Source: Pleurocapsa sp. FMAR1 (GTDB taxonomy: Bacteria > Cyanobacteriota > Cyanobacteriia > Cyanobacteriales > Xenococcaceae). Taken from it: a DNA stretch of 64,000 bases. Both the position numbers and the translations under genes were made by a program. Location of the stretch: NCBI RefSeq assembly GCF_963665995.1, contig NZ_OY762512.1:1798001-1862000 (forward strand). Direction: 5' to 3'. The notes under the pieces are model-generated. The model saw only the letters and a list, made by a program, of their open reading frames with translations. It was not told where the DNA came from and made no database searches. This document shows, one piece after another, positions 13,844 through 42,151 of this stretch (its first letter is position 1; every line of letters starts with the position of its first letter).

Positions 13844-14758
13844 TTAATTTGCAGCTACTAGCTCTTGCTCTTTAACTAAAGCTTTTGCCAAAAATTCCTC
13901 GGTTAGTTTGACAAACGCTTTTGAACCTCCAGAGTTTGGCATAGCTACCGAGACTGGGGTAAATAAATCTACTGCCTTGGCAACATTAACATCCATCGGA
14001 ATTGACTGTTCAAATAGCTGCTCTGGATAAAAGTCATCGCGGACTCTTTTCATCACCTGTTTATAATATCTGCCCATCAATCCACCAGCAGAGAGAATAA
14101 AGACGATTCCTAAAAGATTGACATCTAGTGGTTGAGTATGTTTATGACTTTCTTTTAGCTTGGCAATTCTTCTTTCCAAAAGCTGGATTCCCACTAAAGA
14201 CAAAGGTTCAGGACGAGCAGGCAATAGATAAAAATCACTTGCAGCAATACCGCTACGAGTTAGCAAGTTATATCCAGGAGCGCAGTCGAGGATAATAAAG
14301 TCATAATTATTGGCTATTGGCTCAATAATCTCTTGAATTAAAATTCTCTCAAAATTATCCCAAACTTTTTGGAACTCTTCTTCTTTACACTCAACTGCTT
14401 GTTGATGCAGCATTTCTGAGACTTGATACTCATCATAAAGCTCAATATCTCCTGGAAGTAATTCCAAACCATCTATGCCACAAATATTGGTGACGATAAT
14501 ATCTTGAATGTCTAATTTACTCCAAGGATTAGGATTAATTACATTATCAAGCAGATAGCTAAGAGTATGTTTTTTCTTACGTAACTTCGCAAAATCGTGG
14601 GGTGAAAGTAAACTTAAGGTAGCACTAATTTGAGAATCTAAGTCTAAAACCAATACACGCTTGTTGTGTTTCTGAGCCAAACAGGTTGCAAGATTAACGG
14701 TTAAAGTAGTTTTGCCTACTCCTCCCTTCATGTTGACGGTGCTTATAATAGTTCCCAT
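13844..14758 (-). CDS. ParA-family ATPase, no ParB partner
   Basis: 304 residues. Deviant Walker A KGGVGKTT is at residues 11-18, Walker A' is LVLDLDSQ (about 36-43) and the switch II region is FIILDCAPG (near 150). The protein resembles chromosomal or plasmid ParA/Soj proteins that position cargo on the nucleoid. No ParB is adjacent, so it is an orphan ParA; its cargo cannot be told from the sequence. A 46-bp gap separates it from the PEP gene upstream of the other strand reading, and the start ATG is at 14758. Confidence 0.92.
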   Translation of the reverse strand: MGTIISTVNMKGGVGKTTLTVNLATCLAQKHNKRVLVLDLDSQISATLSLLSPHDFAKLRKKKHTLSYLLDNVINPNPWSKLDIQDIIVTNICGIDGLELLPGDIELYDEYQVSEMLHQQAVECKEEEFQKVWDNFERILIQEIIEPIANNYDFIILDCAPGYNLLTRSGIAASDFYLLPARPEPLSLVGIQLLERRIAKLKESHKHTQPLDVNLLGIVFILSAGGLMGRYYKQVMKRVRDDFYPEQLFEQSIPMDVNVAKAVDLFTPVSVAMPNSGGSKAFVKLTEEFLAKALVKEQELVAAN

Positions 14759-39451: not shown

Positions 39452-39544
39452 CTATGTCTGATAAGGGGTTAGACCCACCGATAAGAGCGGCAGTTTGTCT
39501 GGTTAATGATTTGATTCAACGATTACCATTATTTGCCAAAAAAC

Positions 39545-39712
39545 ATGAGTACTGCTGCAAAAAACGTTGCCATTATTGGTGCTGGACTTAAAGGGTTGGC
39601 TTGTGCGATCGCTTTAGAGAAACAAGGTATTAGACCACGAGAGGGCATAGACTACGCCTTCATAGTTTGGTGGCGGTTACGGGACCCACAAGCTATAAGG
39701 AGCGAAGCATAG
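39545..39712 (+). pseudogene. N-terminal relic of an FAD-dependent oxidoreductase
   Basis: A 55-residue frame starts MSTAAKNVAIIGAGLKGLACAIALEKQGI, a perfect FAD-binding N-terminus with the GxGxxG motif. It then leaves the family and runs into repeat-like sequence (RPREGIDYAFIVWWRL) to a stop. Only the first 30 residues of a roughly 400-residue protein remain. A GC-rich repeat insertion is the likely cause. Confidence 0.7.
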
Positions 39713-39809: not shown

Positions 39810-40499
39810 TTAAGAGTATAGCCAGCTATCAATTATTCTCAACATAGTTTTATCACCCAATCCTCTAACATTTTCTAATACTTCGGTTGATGATTTAAAA
39901 GGTCTTGCTGCGATAATTTTGGGAGCTATATCGTTGGCTTTTTTGTCCGATCGCAGAACTAATTTTAATTTACTAACCAACTCTATTAAATTAGCTTCAT
40001 TGAAAGTTGTCAGTGGCTCTATTTTTTCAGGAAGTTTACTCTTTAGAGAGTCAATTTTTTGCTCTAATTCTTTGTTCTTTTGAGTGTATTCACTTTTTAA
40101 TTCGTTTAGTCGATTTTCTATTCTTGATTCTATATTAGTTAAGCGAGTTTCTAGATTATCTGTATTTAGTTGACGATCTTGTGGAGGTAGAGGTTGTCGA
40201 AATATGGCAACCTGATCTTTGATTATTGTTTCGTTTTTTTCTTCAACAATATATGCTGCGATCGCTTCTCCTATTTCTAGATTTAATTCTCTTGCTCTTG
40301 CTGCTGCATAATATTCAAAATGCCCATCTATTACCTGAAAAGAATTGATACCTGTTCGACTTACTATGATGGGATTAATTATGCCTTCTGCTGCCACAAT
40401 CAAATTAGCAGCCTGTTCTATTTTTTGTTGATCAAAATTAGAACGAGGGCGATTACAAGTTATTGTTCTAACTTCTACTAATGATGATGATAAAGTCAT
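39810..40499 (-). CDS. ParB-like protein with a C-terminal helix-hairpin-helix
   Basis: 229 residues. Residues 8-85 form a ParB/Srx-type domain (VRTITCNRPRSNFDQQKIEQAA, then INPIIVSRTGINSFQVIDGHFEYYAAARAREL); the VIDGHFEYYAA block takes the place of the GERRxxAA motif of ParB. A coiled coil spans about 112-155, and the end (IIAARPFKSSTEVLENVRGLGDKTML) looks like a ComEA-type helix-hairpin-helix DNA-binding segment. Its ATG overlaps the stop of the ParA-fusion gene by 4 bp, so the two are translationally coupled. No centromere-like repeat was seen close by. Confidence 0.82.
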   Translation of the reverse strand: MTLSSSLVEVRTITCNRPRSNFDQQKIEQAANLIVAAEGIINPIIVSRTGINSFQVIDGHFEYYAAARARELNLEIGEAIAAYIVEEKNETIIKDQVAIFRQPLPPQDRQLNTDNLETRLTNIESRIENRLNELKSEYTQKNKELEQKIDSLKSKLPEKIEPLTTFNEANLIELVSKLKLVLRSDKKANDIAPKIIAARPFKSSTEVLENVRGLGDKTMLRIIDSWLYS

Positions 40500-41887
40500 G
40501 CTACTCCTATTTTTTTCAATACTTCAGTTGCCAAGTTTTCAAATTCTTGGGAAGATTTAGAATTAGGGCTATAGTCTAATACAGATCTAGGATCGGGTAT
40601 TTCTATTTCACCGACAAGCTGAACAGCATCAGAGCATTTAGCCAAATCTTCACGTTGAAATATGGTGGTGCTTAATAACGGTAAACTATATTTATTGGTT
40701 ATTTTAGATAATTGCTTTGGCAATGTATGCTGAACAAATTTGGCATGAGTTGATATTTTACAGGGAAGAACACCAATTATTTCTAATGGTTTTTGATTAA
40801 TTACTTTTTTGGTAGCGTTAATATCTTTAATAAAGTTTTTGACGTTTACTAATCCTTGGTTAGCAAAAGGTTTCAAGTCCGAAGGAATTAGTAAATATTC
40901 TGCTGTAATTAAAGCAATCCTGGCATATAGATTTAGAGACGGAGGAGTATCAATTAAAACAATATCATATTGGTCTTTAACTTCTTTTAGCTTTTCTAGC
41001 AGAATAAAATTTATTGAAGCTAACTGATTTAATCTATTTTCTTTCTCCATTAAACTTATATGAGCAGGAATAATATCAACTGTTGGACTACAAAAATCAG
41101 ATGTTCTTTTAATATCTTTGATCGGATAGGACTCTGAAAATCCTATAATATGAGACACGTTTGCTTTTTCAATATAATCATCAAACTCATCATCAAATTT
41201 AACTAAACCTGTAGCAAAAGTTGTATTTGCCTGACTATCTAAATCTATAACTAATACTTTTTTACCTTTTTTACTCAGTGCTGCTGCTAAATTAACTACG
41301 GTGGTTGTTTTGCCTACGCCACCTTTATTATGATATACCGCTATAGTTTTCATGCTTTGCTTTGCTTGTGGTTTATTTATTGTGGAGGTATTGCTAGTAG
41401 CTACTTTACTAGTTTTTCTATTATTTTTTCTAAGACTATCTTTCCCAATTAAAGCTTTAATATTAGCAATATTATTGTCAATATCATTTCCACTACATCG
41501 GAATAACAGTTTTAATGAATTAGGAAATAAACCTCTAGATAATCCTGGCGAACTTACTCTTTGGTAAATTCTCAAGTCTTTACCATTGGTTAAAACTCCG
41601 TACTTGACTGAGATGCTATGCAAATATATATTAAACTTTCTAACATGATTGTCTAAATTTTCTTTTGGATGTTTTGTTTCTATAATTAGGCTACGAGTTA
41701 AATTTATCTTTGTTTGATTAGAAACAATTGGTTTGCTCAAGATCAAGAAGTCTAAACGAATATTGCGAATAGTTACTTCTTCATACCAACTATTAGGAGA
41801 ATAGCCTAATTTTGGCAACAAATAGTGAACTACTAGCTTGCTTCTTACTTCTGCTTCATTACGACAATAGTGATGATTAAAACTCAA
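40496..41887 (-). CDS. ParA ATPase fused to an N-terminal HsdR-type nuclease-like domain
   Basis: 463 residues. Residues 8-112 resemble the N-terminal nuclease domain of type I restriction HsdR subunits (EAEVRSKLVVHYLLPKLGY, then RLDFLIL with D46, LIIETKH with E70 and K72, and NGKDLRIYQ). The pattern D...ExK is the PD-(D/E)XK active site. Residues 180-460 are a ParA ATPase with deviant Walker A KGGVGKTT (188-195), VLVIDLDSQ and IVLIDTPPS. It is operonic with a ParB-like gene. The domain combination is unusual. It may be a partition, defence or mobile-element module; this is inference. Confidence 0.85.
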   Translation of the reverse strand: MSFNHHYCRNEAEVRSKLVVHYLLPKLGYSPNSWYEEVTIRNIRLDFLILSKPIVSNQTKINLTRSLIIETKHPKENLDNHVRKFNIYLHSISVKYGVLTNGKDLRIYQRVSSPGLSRGLFPNSLKLLFRCSGNDIDNNIANIKALIGKDSLRKNNRKTSKVATSNTSTINKPQAKQSMKTIAVYHNKGGVGKTTTVVNLAAALSKKGKKVLVIDLDSQANTTFATGLVKFDDEFDDYIEKANVSHIIGFSESYPIKDIKRTSDFCSPTVDIIPAHISLMEKENRLNQLASINFILLEKLKEVKDQYDIVLIDTPPSLNLYARIALITAEYLLIPSDLKPFANQGLVNVKNFIKDINATKKVINQKPLEIIGVLPCKISTHAKFVQHTLPKQLSKITNKYSLPLLSTTIFQREDLAKCSDAVQLVGEIEIPDPRSVLDYSPNSKSSQEFENLATEVLKKIGVA

Positions 41888-42151
41888 TGGAATACACTTA
41901 AATCTATAATTCGGTCAATAGTTGTATTTTACTAATAAGTAGGTAATTGTAATTAAATGTAAGATAGTTTGGTTTGGTTCGGGATTAGGAATAAAATTTC
42001 AAGATCGAGTCTTATAAATTATTTCGCCTACTTACTTATTCTAAATGCTTGATAGCGATCGCCATTTTCTAAATCCCTACACTAGATTAGAAATTAGTCG
42101 ATTGACGTTAGATTGAAGAAGAATTAGTTAGCAAGTAAACCAATAACTATA

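Follow-up and report, generated by a model that had tools for sequence, protein, structure and literature searches.

In a 64,000-nucleotide stretch of the genome of the cyanobacterium Pleurocapsa sp. FMAR1 (contig NZ_OY762512.1, positions 1,798,001 to 1,862,000; hereafter the window), a ParA-type partition ATPase carries an N-terminal nuclease-type domain of the HSDR_N, or PD-(D/E)XK, kind (the N-domain) and is followed by a gene for a ParB-like partner. In relatives of this gene pair the putative active site of the N-domain is conserved, and the N-domain and the ParA-ParB part have been inherited separately. Taken with purifying selection, the kept catalytic-type residues and the linked exchange of ParA and ParB suggest a cutter that stays constant and an aiming part that can change. 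Our favoured reading, to which we assign a probability of about 0.4, is that a constant nuclease is combined with a specificity module, ParA-ParB, which can be swapped and descends from plasmid partition, and that the whole serves conflict between replicons. Partition ATPases are usually regarded as DNA movers. If the favoured reading is true, a ParA with a conserved nuclease-type domain and cassette-like ParA-ParB exchange would link plasmid incompatibility to DNA destruction, and the handling of foreign or rival replicons by polyploid cyanobacteria and giant sulfur bacteria would become testable.

The N-domain matches Pfam HSDR_N_2 (PF13588) over residues 11-112 (E 3.2e-6; 27.6 bits, above the cut-off of 25), and the ParA part matches AAA_31 over residues 179-359 (E 1.5e-54). 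The original prediction, made from the letters of the window, had proposed just such a fusion of a nuclease-type domain with an intact motif to a complete ParA, and both the Pfam matches and residue conservation confirm it. Across 35 N-domains, HSDR_N_2 is matched by 34 and HSDR_N by 32 (E <= 0.01). The putative catalytic residues D46, E70 and K72 lie where they had been placed, and E11 is equally conserved: over 68 loci, E11 is kept in 68, D46 in 67, E70 in 68 and K72 in 68, and all four are also invariant in alignments of 31 and of 56 fusion proteins. The sole exception to D46 is a D46G allele in locus L120 (8001-9476; Laspinema olomoucense D3b). When 12 diverged members, five of which stem from plasmids or a contig of a viral collection, are aligned, E11, D46, E70, K72, Y88, G97 and N101 are invariant. 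The AlphaFold2 model of the whole fusion chain (mean predicted local distance difference test score, pLDDT, 90.3) gives the helices (H) and strands (E) of the N-domain in the order H11-26, E34-40, E43-50, E66-71, H78-92, E96-100, E104-111. The PD-(D/E)XK core has the order alpha-beta3-alpha-beta, and the modelled N-domain has both this order and an E..D..ExK active site. The ratio of nonsynonymous to synonymous substitution rates (dN/dS) in the N-domain is 0.016-0.136 in 8 pairs, indicating purifying selection, and that of residues 113-178 is 0.28-0.49 in 8 pairs, exceeding both the N-domain and ParA in every pair. Judged by these residues, the N-domain may cleave DNA.

The ParA domain and the partner are likewise recognizable. 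ParA residues K188, K193, D217 and D313 (deviant Walker A motif and catalytic aspartates) are kept in 68 of 68 loci, and the best solved matches of ParA in a Foldseek search are Soj/ParA. Pfam ParB_N matches partner residues 16-69 (E 4.1e-7) and is present in 49 of 54 partners (E <= 0.01). The partner model (mean pLDDT 92.9) shows a long coiled-coil helix and a helix-hairpin-helix (HhH)-type tail; among solved structures Noc and ParB match it best, followed by SbnI, PadC and sulfiredoxin. The expectation that the partner ends in an HhH is borne out by this model and by relatives, in which tails match HHH_6 (14 of 54) or HHH_3 (9), with Rho_N (4) or SAP (1) instead in others (E <= 0.01), but the match in the window protein alone is weak (HHH_3, E 0.061). 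As had also been predicted, the GERRxxAA signature is missing: its arginines, which bind cytidine triphosphate (CTP), are not found in the window partner, and 1 of the 54 partner rows has one of the two. The commonest residues at this place in the 54 partners are G-[HD]-[FL]-E-Y-Y-A-A. There is no evident helix-turn-helix (HTH) in the structure model of the partner. The predicted overlap of the fusion stop with the partner start holds over four bases (Table 1) and may reflect translational coupling of the two genes.

Table 1. Coordinates of the gene pair and its parts in the window
Feature	Position	Strand	Basis or remark
HSDR_N-type PD-(D/E)XK domain + ParA fusion	40496-41887	-	463 amino acids (aa), TTG start
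HSDR_N_2 (PD-(D/E)XK) domain, residues 11-112	41552-41857	-	Pfam, conserved residues, predicted topology; putative active site E11, D46, E70, K72
Residues 113-178: strand 124-132, predicted helices 137-147 and 149-159, low-confidence linker 159-173	41354-41551	-	AlphaFold2
ParA ATPase domain, residues 179-463; Walker A KGGVGKTT at 188-195	40499-41353	-	Pfam, alignment, Foldseek
ParB-like partner, 229 aa, ATG start: ParB/Srx fold ~1-100, coiled coil 113-155, HhH-type tail 162-228	39810-40499	-	Open reading frame (ORF) list, Pfam, model
ATGA (minus strand) common to both frames, four bases	40496-40499	-	ORF coordinates

The separate histories of the two parts were examined in mosaic tests on 68 fused loci with a ParA of at least 430 aa and a partner of at least 180 aa; shorter, broken and solo loci were left out. 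Among six Nostoc loci (15 pairs), identity is 89-94% in the upstream DNA, 95-100% in the N-domain, 53-96% in ParA, 36-92% in the partner and 41-91% in the downstream 500 nucleotides (nt). Across genera, Laspinema L094 and Phormidium L114 are 88% identical in the upstream 500 nt, 99% in the N-domain, 55% in ParA, 37% in the partner and 85% downstream. ParA falls below 65% in 20 of the 40 pairs with an N-domain identity of at least 94%, these pairs coming from 14 of the 68 loci and not being independent. In 100-bp windows, identity falls inside the fusion gene; for L094/L114 it stays under 70% from +700 to +2200 and is 71% and 91% in the two windows that come first after the parB stop. Beyond that stop the pairs L094/L114, L085/L116, L072/L082 and L070/L122 recover to an identity of about 90% or more, whereas L079/L123 does not. 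Synonymous differences in the N-domain and in ParA are 0.17 versus 0.52 (L072/L082) and 0.28 versus 0.70 (L094/L114); since the gap exists at synonymous sites too, the mosaics are not explained by an N-domain whose protein sequence evolves more slowly. Partner tails also seem, from their sequences, to be exchanged on their own. In L072/L082, about 1700-2200 bp past the fusion start, identity is 38-55% over the 3' part of the partner gene, as against about 90% at the ParA end and 88-96% in DNA from +2300.

The identity of ParA tracks that of the partner better than that of the N-domain. Over the 2278 pairs of the 68 loci, Spearman correlations are 0.71 for ParA and partner, 0.40 for ParA and N-domain, and 0.57 for N-domain and partner. 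ParA type B, defined on the ParA tree as the clade that descends from the common ancestor of nine seed loci picked after viewing the pairwise mosaics, comprises 24 of the 68 loci and forms a single clade there (support 100, one change). On the N-domain tree it needs 16 changes, and the N-domain data reject the clade in an approximately unbiased (AU) test (p 3.7e-67); on the partner (ParB-N) data it needs 3 changes and is not rejected (p 0.575). Conversely, a clade of ten Nostocales loci with similar N-domains is rejected by the ParA data (p 1.8e-65) and not by the N-domain data (p 0.126), although the free N-domain tree does not show these ten loci as one clade. These AU p-values are conditional on the post hoc choice of seeds and rest on quick trees. 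From the type B tests, the mosaics and the correlations together, ParA and ParB largely travel together, with a history apart from that of the nuclease-type domain. The ParA tree was built from 105 of 127 ParA-domain sequences, with 22 rows (21 loci) left out by a hand list of near-copies and truncated rows and also L116 and L120. Solo ParAs are scattered among fusions in this tree; 10 changes of the fusion label are required, and starred branches force at least 4 of these. Rows from sulfur bacteria are mixed in with cyanobacterial ones; many of the forks there are left open, and the one uniting them with most cyanobacteria is supported at 89.

The fusion is widely distributed. Our survey of the class covered 388 genomes, in 88 of which the ParA domain gave 90 matches at E <= 1e-40: 62 in frames of at least 430 aa, 26 in frames of at most 325 aa and 2 between. 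The fusion is thus not unique to this strain, with an N-domain match at the same place in 61 of the 62 long frames; two of the 62 (G099 and G306) contain TAG. The exception is genome G327, where the same ParA is joined to a helicase part; ahead of it stand an MTES_1575-type nuclease and an SF1 helicase, the latter divided between two frames, AAA_11 and AAA_12 (locus L147, 1777-4974, minus strand). By its domain matches, this is a different nuclease-motor standing in for HSDR_N, which we count in support of the favoured reading. Among the 26 short frames, two (G318 and G005) have an N-domain in a separate frame. The 159-residue N-terminal piece has matches in 109 of 388 genomes (E <= 0.001), a count that includes another family of HSDR_N-ParA fusions, about 500 aa long (L148 2012-3487, L149 2014-3516, L150, L154, L155 and L156). 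The genes downstream of this second family match ParB_N above the cut-off in L148, below it in L156 and not at all in L154. On the ParA tree it groups with the window-type fusions with support 85, a grouping that long branches make unsure.

A scan of named genomes, from which the best 80 loci of a longer list were taken and joined with the window (81 loci), addressed the co-occurrence of the two genes. The partner cluster is found in 78 of the 81 loci, and no other neighbour cluster in more than 16. Ten of the best 80 loci carry non-cyanobacterial labels (Desulfonema magnum, Beggiatoa, Parabeggiatoa, Thioploca, Thiomargarita (two), Thiorhodospira, a Desulfobacteraceae, a Bacteroidales and a Deltaproteobacteria), eight of these labels belonging to metagenome bins and possibly being wrong. 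As far as such matches tell, the fusion is spread across cyanobacteria and some sulfur bacteria. As a separate matter, a common effector before the solo ParA genes was considered and rejected: the upstream genes differ in four loci, encoding a Na/Ca exchanger, a PhoD-type phosphatase, an ATP-grasp protein and a protein with no Pfam match.

Relatives on plasmids suggest, from their gene content, a partition ancestry of the gene pair. They were reached through a single locus, L241, one of the best 80 loci of a scan of viral contigs, and ParA-ParB-type plasmid relatives were found only through it. L241 (5533-7553, on a viral-collection contig) encodes an HSDR_N-ParA fusion (HSDR_N_2 at 23.2 bits, below the cut-off of 25) overlapping a following ParB_N-like/Rho_N protein, and the pair is 55-62% identical to pairs on two plasmids of Nostoc sp. 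UHCC 0870. A PLSDB search with the L241 fusion gave six records that cover at least 80% of its length, all of them cyanobacterial plasmids: two from Nostoc UHCC 0870, two from Leptolyngbya boryana (two strains, same plasmid length) and two from Pseudanabaena. On the Pseudanabaena plasmid ABRG53g (12.6 kb, CyRepA1 Rep), the fusion relative adjoins a 134-aa protein with a sub-threshold ParB_N match; the relative has no Pfam HSDR_N at E <= 0.05, yet all four putative catalytic residues align. The N-domain of the window type gave 10 matches to plasmids, in proteins carrying HsdR-type, N-6 methylase or DUF5655 annotations. It matched nothing in the phage collection, and no viral contig was confirmed as encoding a relative. 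Phage or plasmid cargo was rejected for the window type on these grounds.

In the favoured reading, a two-gene module of plasmid-partition ancestry would have settled on chromosomes. Its constant part would be the N-terminal PD-(D/E)XK nuclease domain, and its variable part the ParA ATPase domain with the ParB-like protein, swapped between loci as a linked pair. With its HhH or SAP/Rho_N tail the partner would attach to DNA, and it would recruit an ATP-bound ParA dimer, which would place two nuclease heads on the partner-bound DNA; ATP turnover would then reset the complex. The choice of nucleoprotein complex or replicon to engage would lie with the variable ParA-ParB pair. As the likely role we see replicon conflict: plasmids or other DNA entering the cell would be kept out, by an incompatibility equipped with a cutter. 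That related species, at some chromosomal sites, have retained the cutter-type domain beside very different motor-partner parts hints at recognition or conflict more than at segregation of the ordinary kind. A bolder form of this proposal, which we consider doubtful, is a restriction-like system without methylation, in which a constant PD-(D/E)XK nuclease is aimed by an exchangeable ParA-ParB, balancing selection maintains ancient types, which are exchanged at fixed loci on the chromosomes from one cyanobacterial genus to another, and cells or replicons of the other partition type are recognised and cut.

Several observations weigh against a conflict-serving nuclease. The N-domain fold has no independent PDB match: all 50 matches listed by Foldseek for the full fusion model are ParA/MinD/NifH-type ATPases, and when a profile built from 35 N-domains was searched against PDB sequences, nothing matched at E <= 1. 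Among the 81 loci the pair has no regular companion gene, for example one for immunity or for a methylase. Separate inheritance is evidence of recombination, not of what selects for it, and in L101/L102 the N-domain is more diverged than ParA. At one Oscillatoriales locus, eight copies with the same neighbours (28 pairs) show no ParA exchange (ParA 86-94%, N-domain 80-99%, partner 60-86%). ParA-ParB also persists without the nuclease, since 24 of the 26 short-frame ParAs have no N-domain match at their place, and in the genus of G052 the N-domain occurs in 23 of 26 species (one a contig-end piece and one split), a housekeeping-like retention. The nuclease-less pairs, this near-universal presence, the quiet Oscillatoriales locus and the lack of a defence neighbourhood described below weaken a pure defence role and keep positioning alive. 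The main rival, a real possibility in our estimate, is that ParA and its partner distribute replicon or chromosome copies in polyploid cells, with the nuclease domain processing or resolving DNA and ParA-ParB exchange being recombination with plasmid-borne or allelic copies, with no conflict role. In its favour there are also the six plasmids that match the L241 fusion, and ABRG53g in particular, where, among 17 called ORFs, none but the fusion relative has a ParA-type Walker motif. Against it, the two Nostoc plasmids with a relative also carry ParM and further ParA-type genes, and one of them ParB-type genes as well; the partner lacks the GERR arginines and, in its model, an evident HTH; and only 2 of 13 species of the window's genus carry the fusion. 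Nor do the operons keep to the origin: with dnaN as its proxy, distances did not differ from uniform (Kolmogorov-Smirnov p 0.65) in 16 of 20 genomes, G144, G185, G005 and G333, which lack an exact chromosome length, being left out. An origin-proximal chromosome partition locus finds no support in this result.

Two further explanations concern what the N-domain does. Type Ia plasmid ParA proteins have an N-terminal HTH in the same position as the N-domain of the fusion, and the N-domain might replace it as a catalytically idle, DNA-binding or autoregulatory part. The natural D46G allele and the dispensability of the domain in solo ParA lineages fit this idea; we consider it unlikely in view of the putative catalytic residues, which are kept in nearly every one of the 68 loci and in 12 of 12 diverged members. 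Differing ParA-ParB types between similar flanks at the same loci would also be expected of a selfish, drive-like cassette that favours its own allele among polyploid chromosome copies by cutting copies with the other ParA-ParB type. No cut site is known for it, nothing shows biased inheritance and the N-domain is absent from 24 of the 90 ParA-family places, and we regard it as quite improbable.

The surroundings of the operon bear on a further part of the original prediction, which had placed it at a possible insertion point and asked for mobile or defence genes nearby. Nearby ORFs in the window look ordinary, and in related loci PADLOC families (E <= 1e-15) are equally numerous near the operon (38 among 136 proteins) and far from it (38 among 136), although the near matches include one SspH-, one AbiLi- and one AriA-type protein. 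A defence island is thus not supported, and this equality also tells against a defence function. A search with PADLOC 2.0.0 for a known anti-phage system found no full-length model match and no defence neighbourhood. As a whole, the earlier interpretation is partly supported: the domains, the fusion and the ParB-like/HhH-type partner stand, and the mobile or defence island found no support. In the search for a centromere-like parS, 9-mers were counted within up to 76 operons and on both sides of them. This yielded just a promoter-like motif in Nostocales: TATGSCATAAT, at about -66, was the sole recurrent motif followed up and looks like an extended -10 promoter. Inverted repeats were sought upstream of the window operon only, and none was found. 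The G+C content of the block 40001-42000 is 31%, versus 36-44% in the other 2-kb blocks of the window, and that of the operon lies below its flanks in 69 of 70 loci (mean difference 5.9 points), which we count in support of the favoured reading.

Other observations concern the window and its genome, a single contig of 5.43 Mb, which a HIP1-rich sequence and its relatives mark as cyanobacterial. The fusion matches it fully once, and five further places match only in part of the ParA region. There are two further HSDR_N_2 matches (G000 C1 2263233-2263562 and 3675323-3675559). At 13847-14758 (minus strand) the window encodes another ParA-like ATPase of 304 aa, which by its look goes with the divergent ParA adjoining the fusion in several Nostocales and Symploca loci (group NB of the ParA tree). 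A 59-aa ORF at 39533-39712 (plus strand) with a GAGLKGL-type stretch is probably what had been called a flavoprotein relic, which would be at most that ORF.

The original prediction knew of no named system with this pairing, and none was recognised among the open-access matches listed. No description of the fusion was recognised either in the titles and abstract starts of the open-access literature listed, a scope outside which most subscription papers and bioRxiv fall. In the parts available, PMC4619093 treats the ParB/Srx-fold nucleases of GmrSD with no ParA, and PMC1913061 has one HSDR_N passage and no ParA. ParA as a whole word was not found in the portions seen of PMC10853773, PMC10899382 and PMC9978351. 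In PMC12839542, also seen in part, the listed matches are words such as parameters and paralleling, and HsdR was not found.

Among known systems, type I partition (ParA/ParB, Soj/Spo0J) shares with this locus a complete ParA ATPase, an adjoining ParB-fold gene and relatives on plasmids. It differs in that here ParA bears a nuclease-type domain whose history is separate from that of ParA-ParB, and in that the partner has no CTP arginines or evident HTH and ends in an HhH-type or SAP/Rho_N tail. The nucleoid occlusion protein Noc is the best sequence and fold match of the partner's N-domain, whereas the partner has no GERR arginines, has another DNA-binding part and is paired with a nuclease-ParA. 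McdA/McdB, which positions carboxysomes, consists of a cyanobacterial ParA-type ATPase with a small partner; McdA appears at Foldseek ranks 17-19 and 25, a lower-ranked match, and the nuclease-type domain and ParB-fold partner set the present pair apart. The PADLOC candidate PDC-M28B matches ParA residues 165-217 (PADLOC 2.0.0, E 5.5e-12), a likeness of only 53 residues around Walker A that gives no family assignment. With the N-terminal nuclease domain of HsdR (HSDR_N, HSDR_N_2), the fusion shares an above-cut-off Pfam match and the residues E, D and ExK; unlike in type I restriction-modification, ParA here replaces the translocase, and there is no HsdM/HsdS neighbour cluster in the 81 loci. 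As an analogy only, the pattern of a constant nuclease and a variable recognition part recalls that of HsdR and HsdS.

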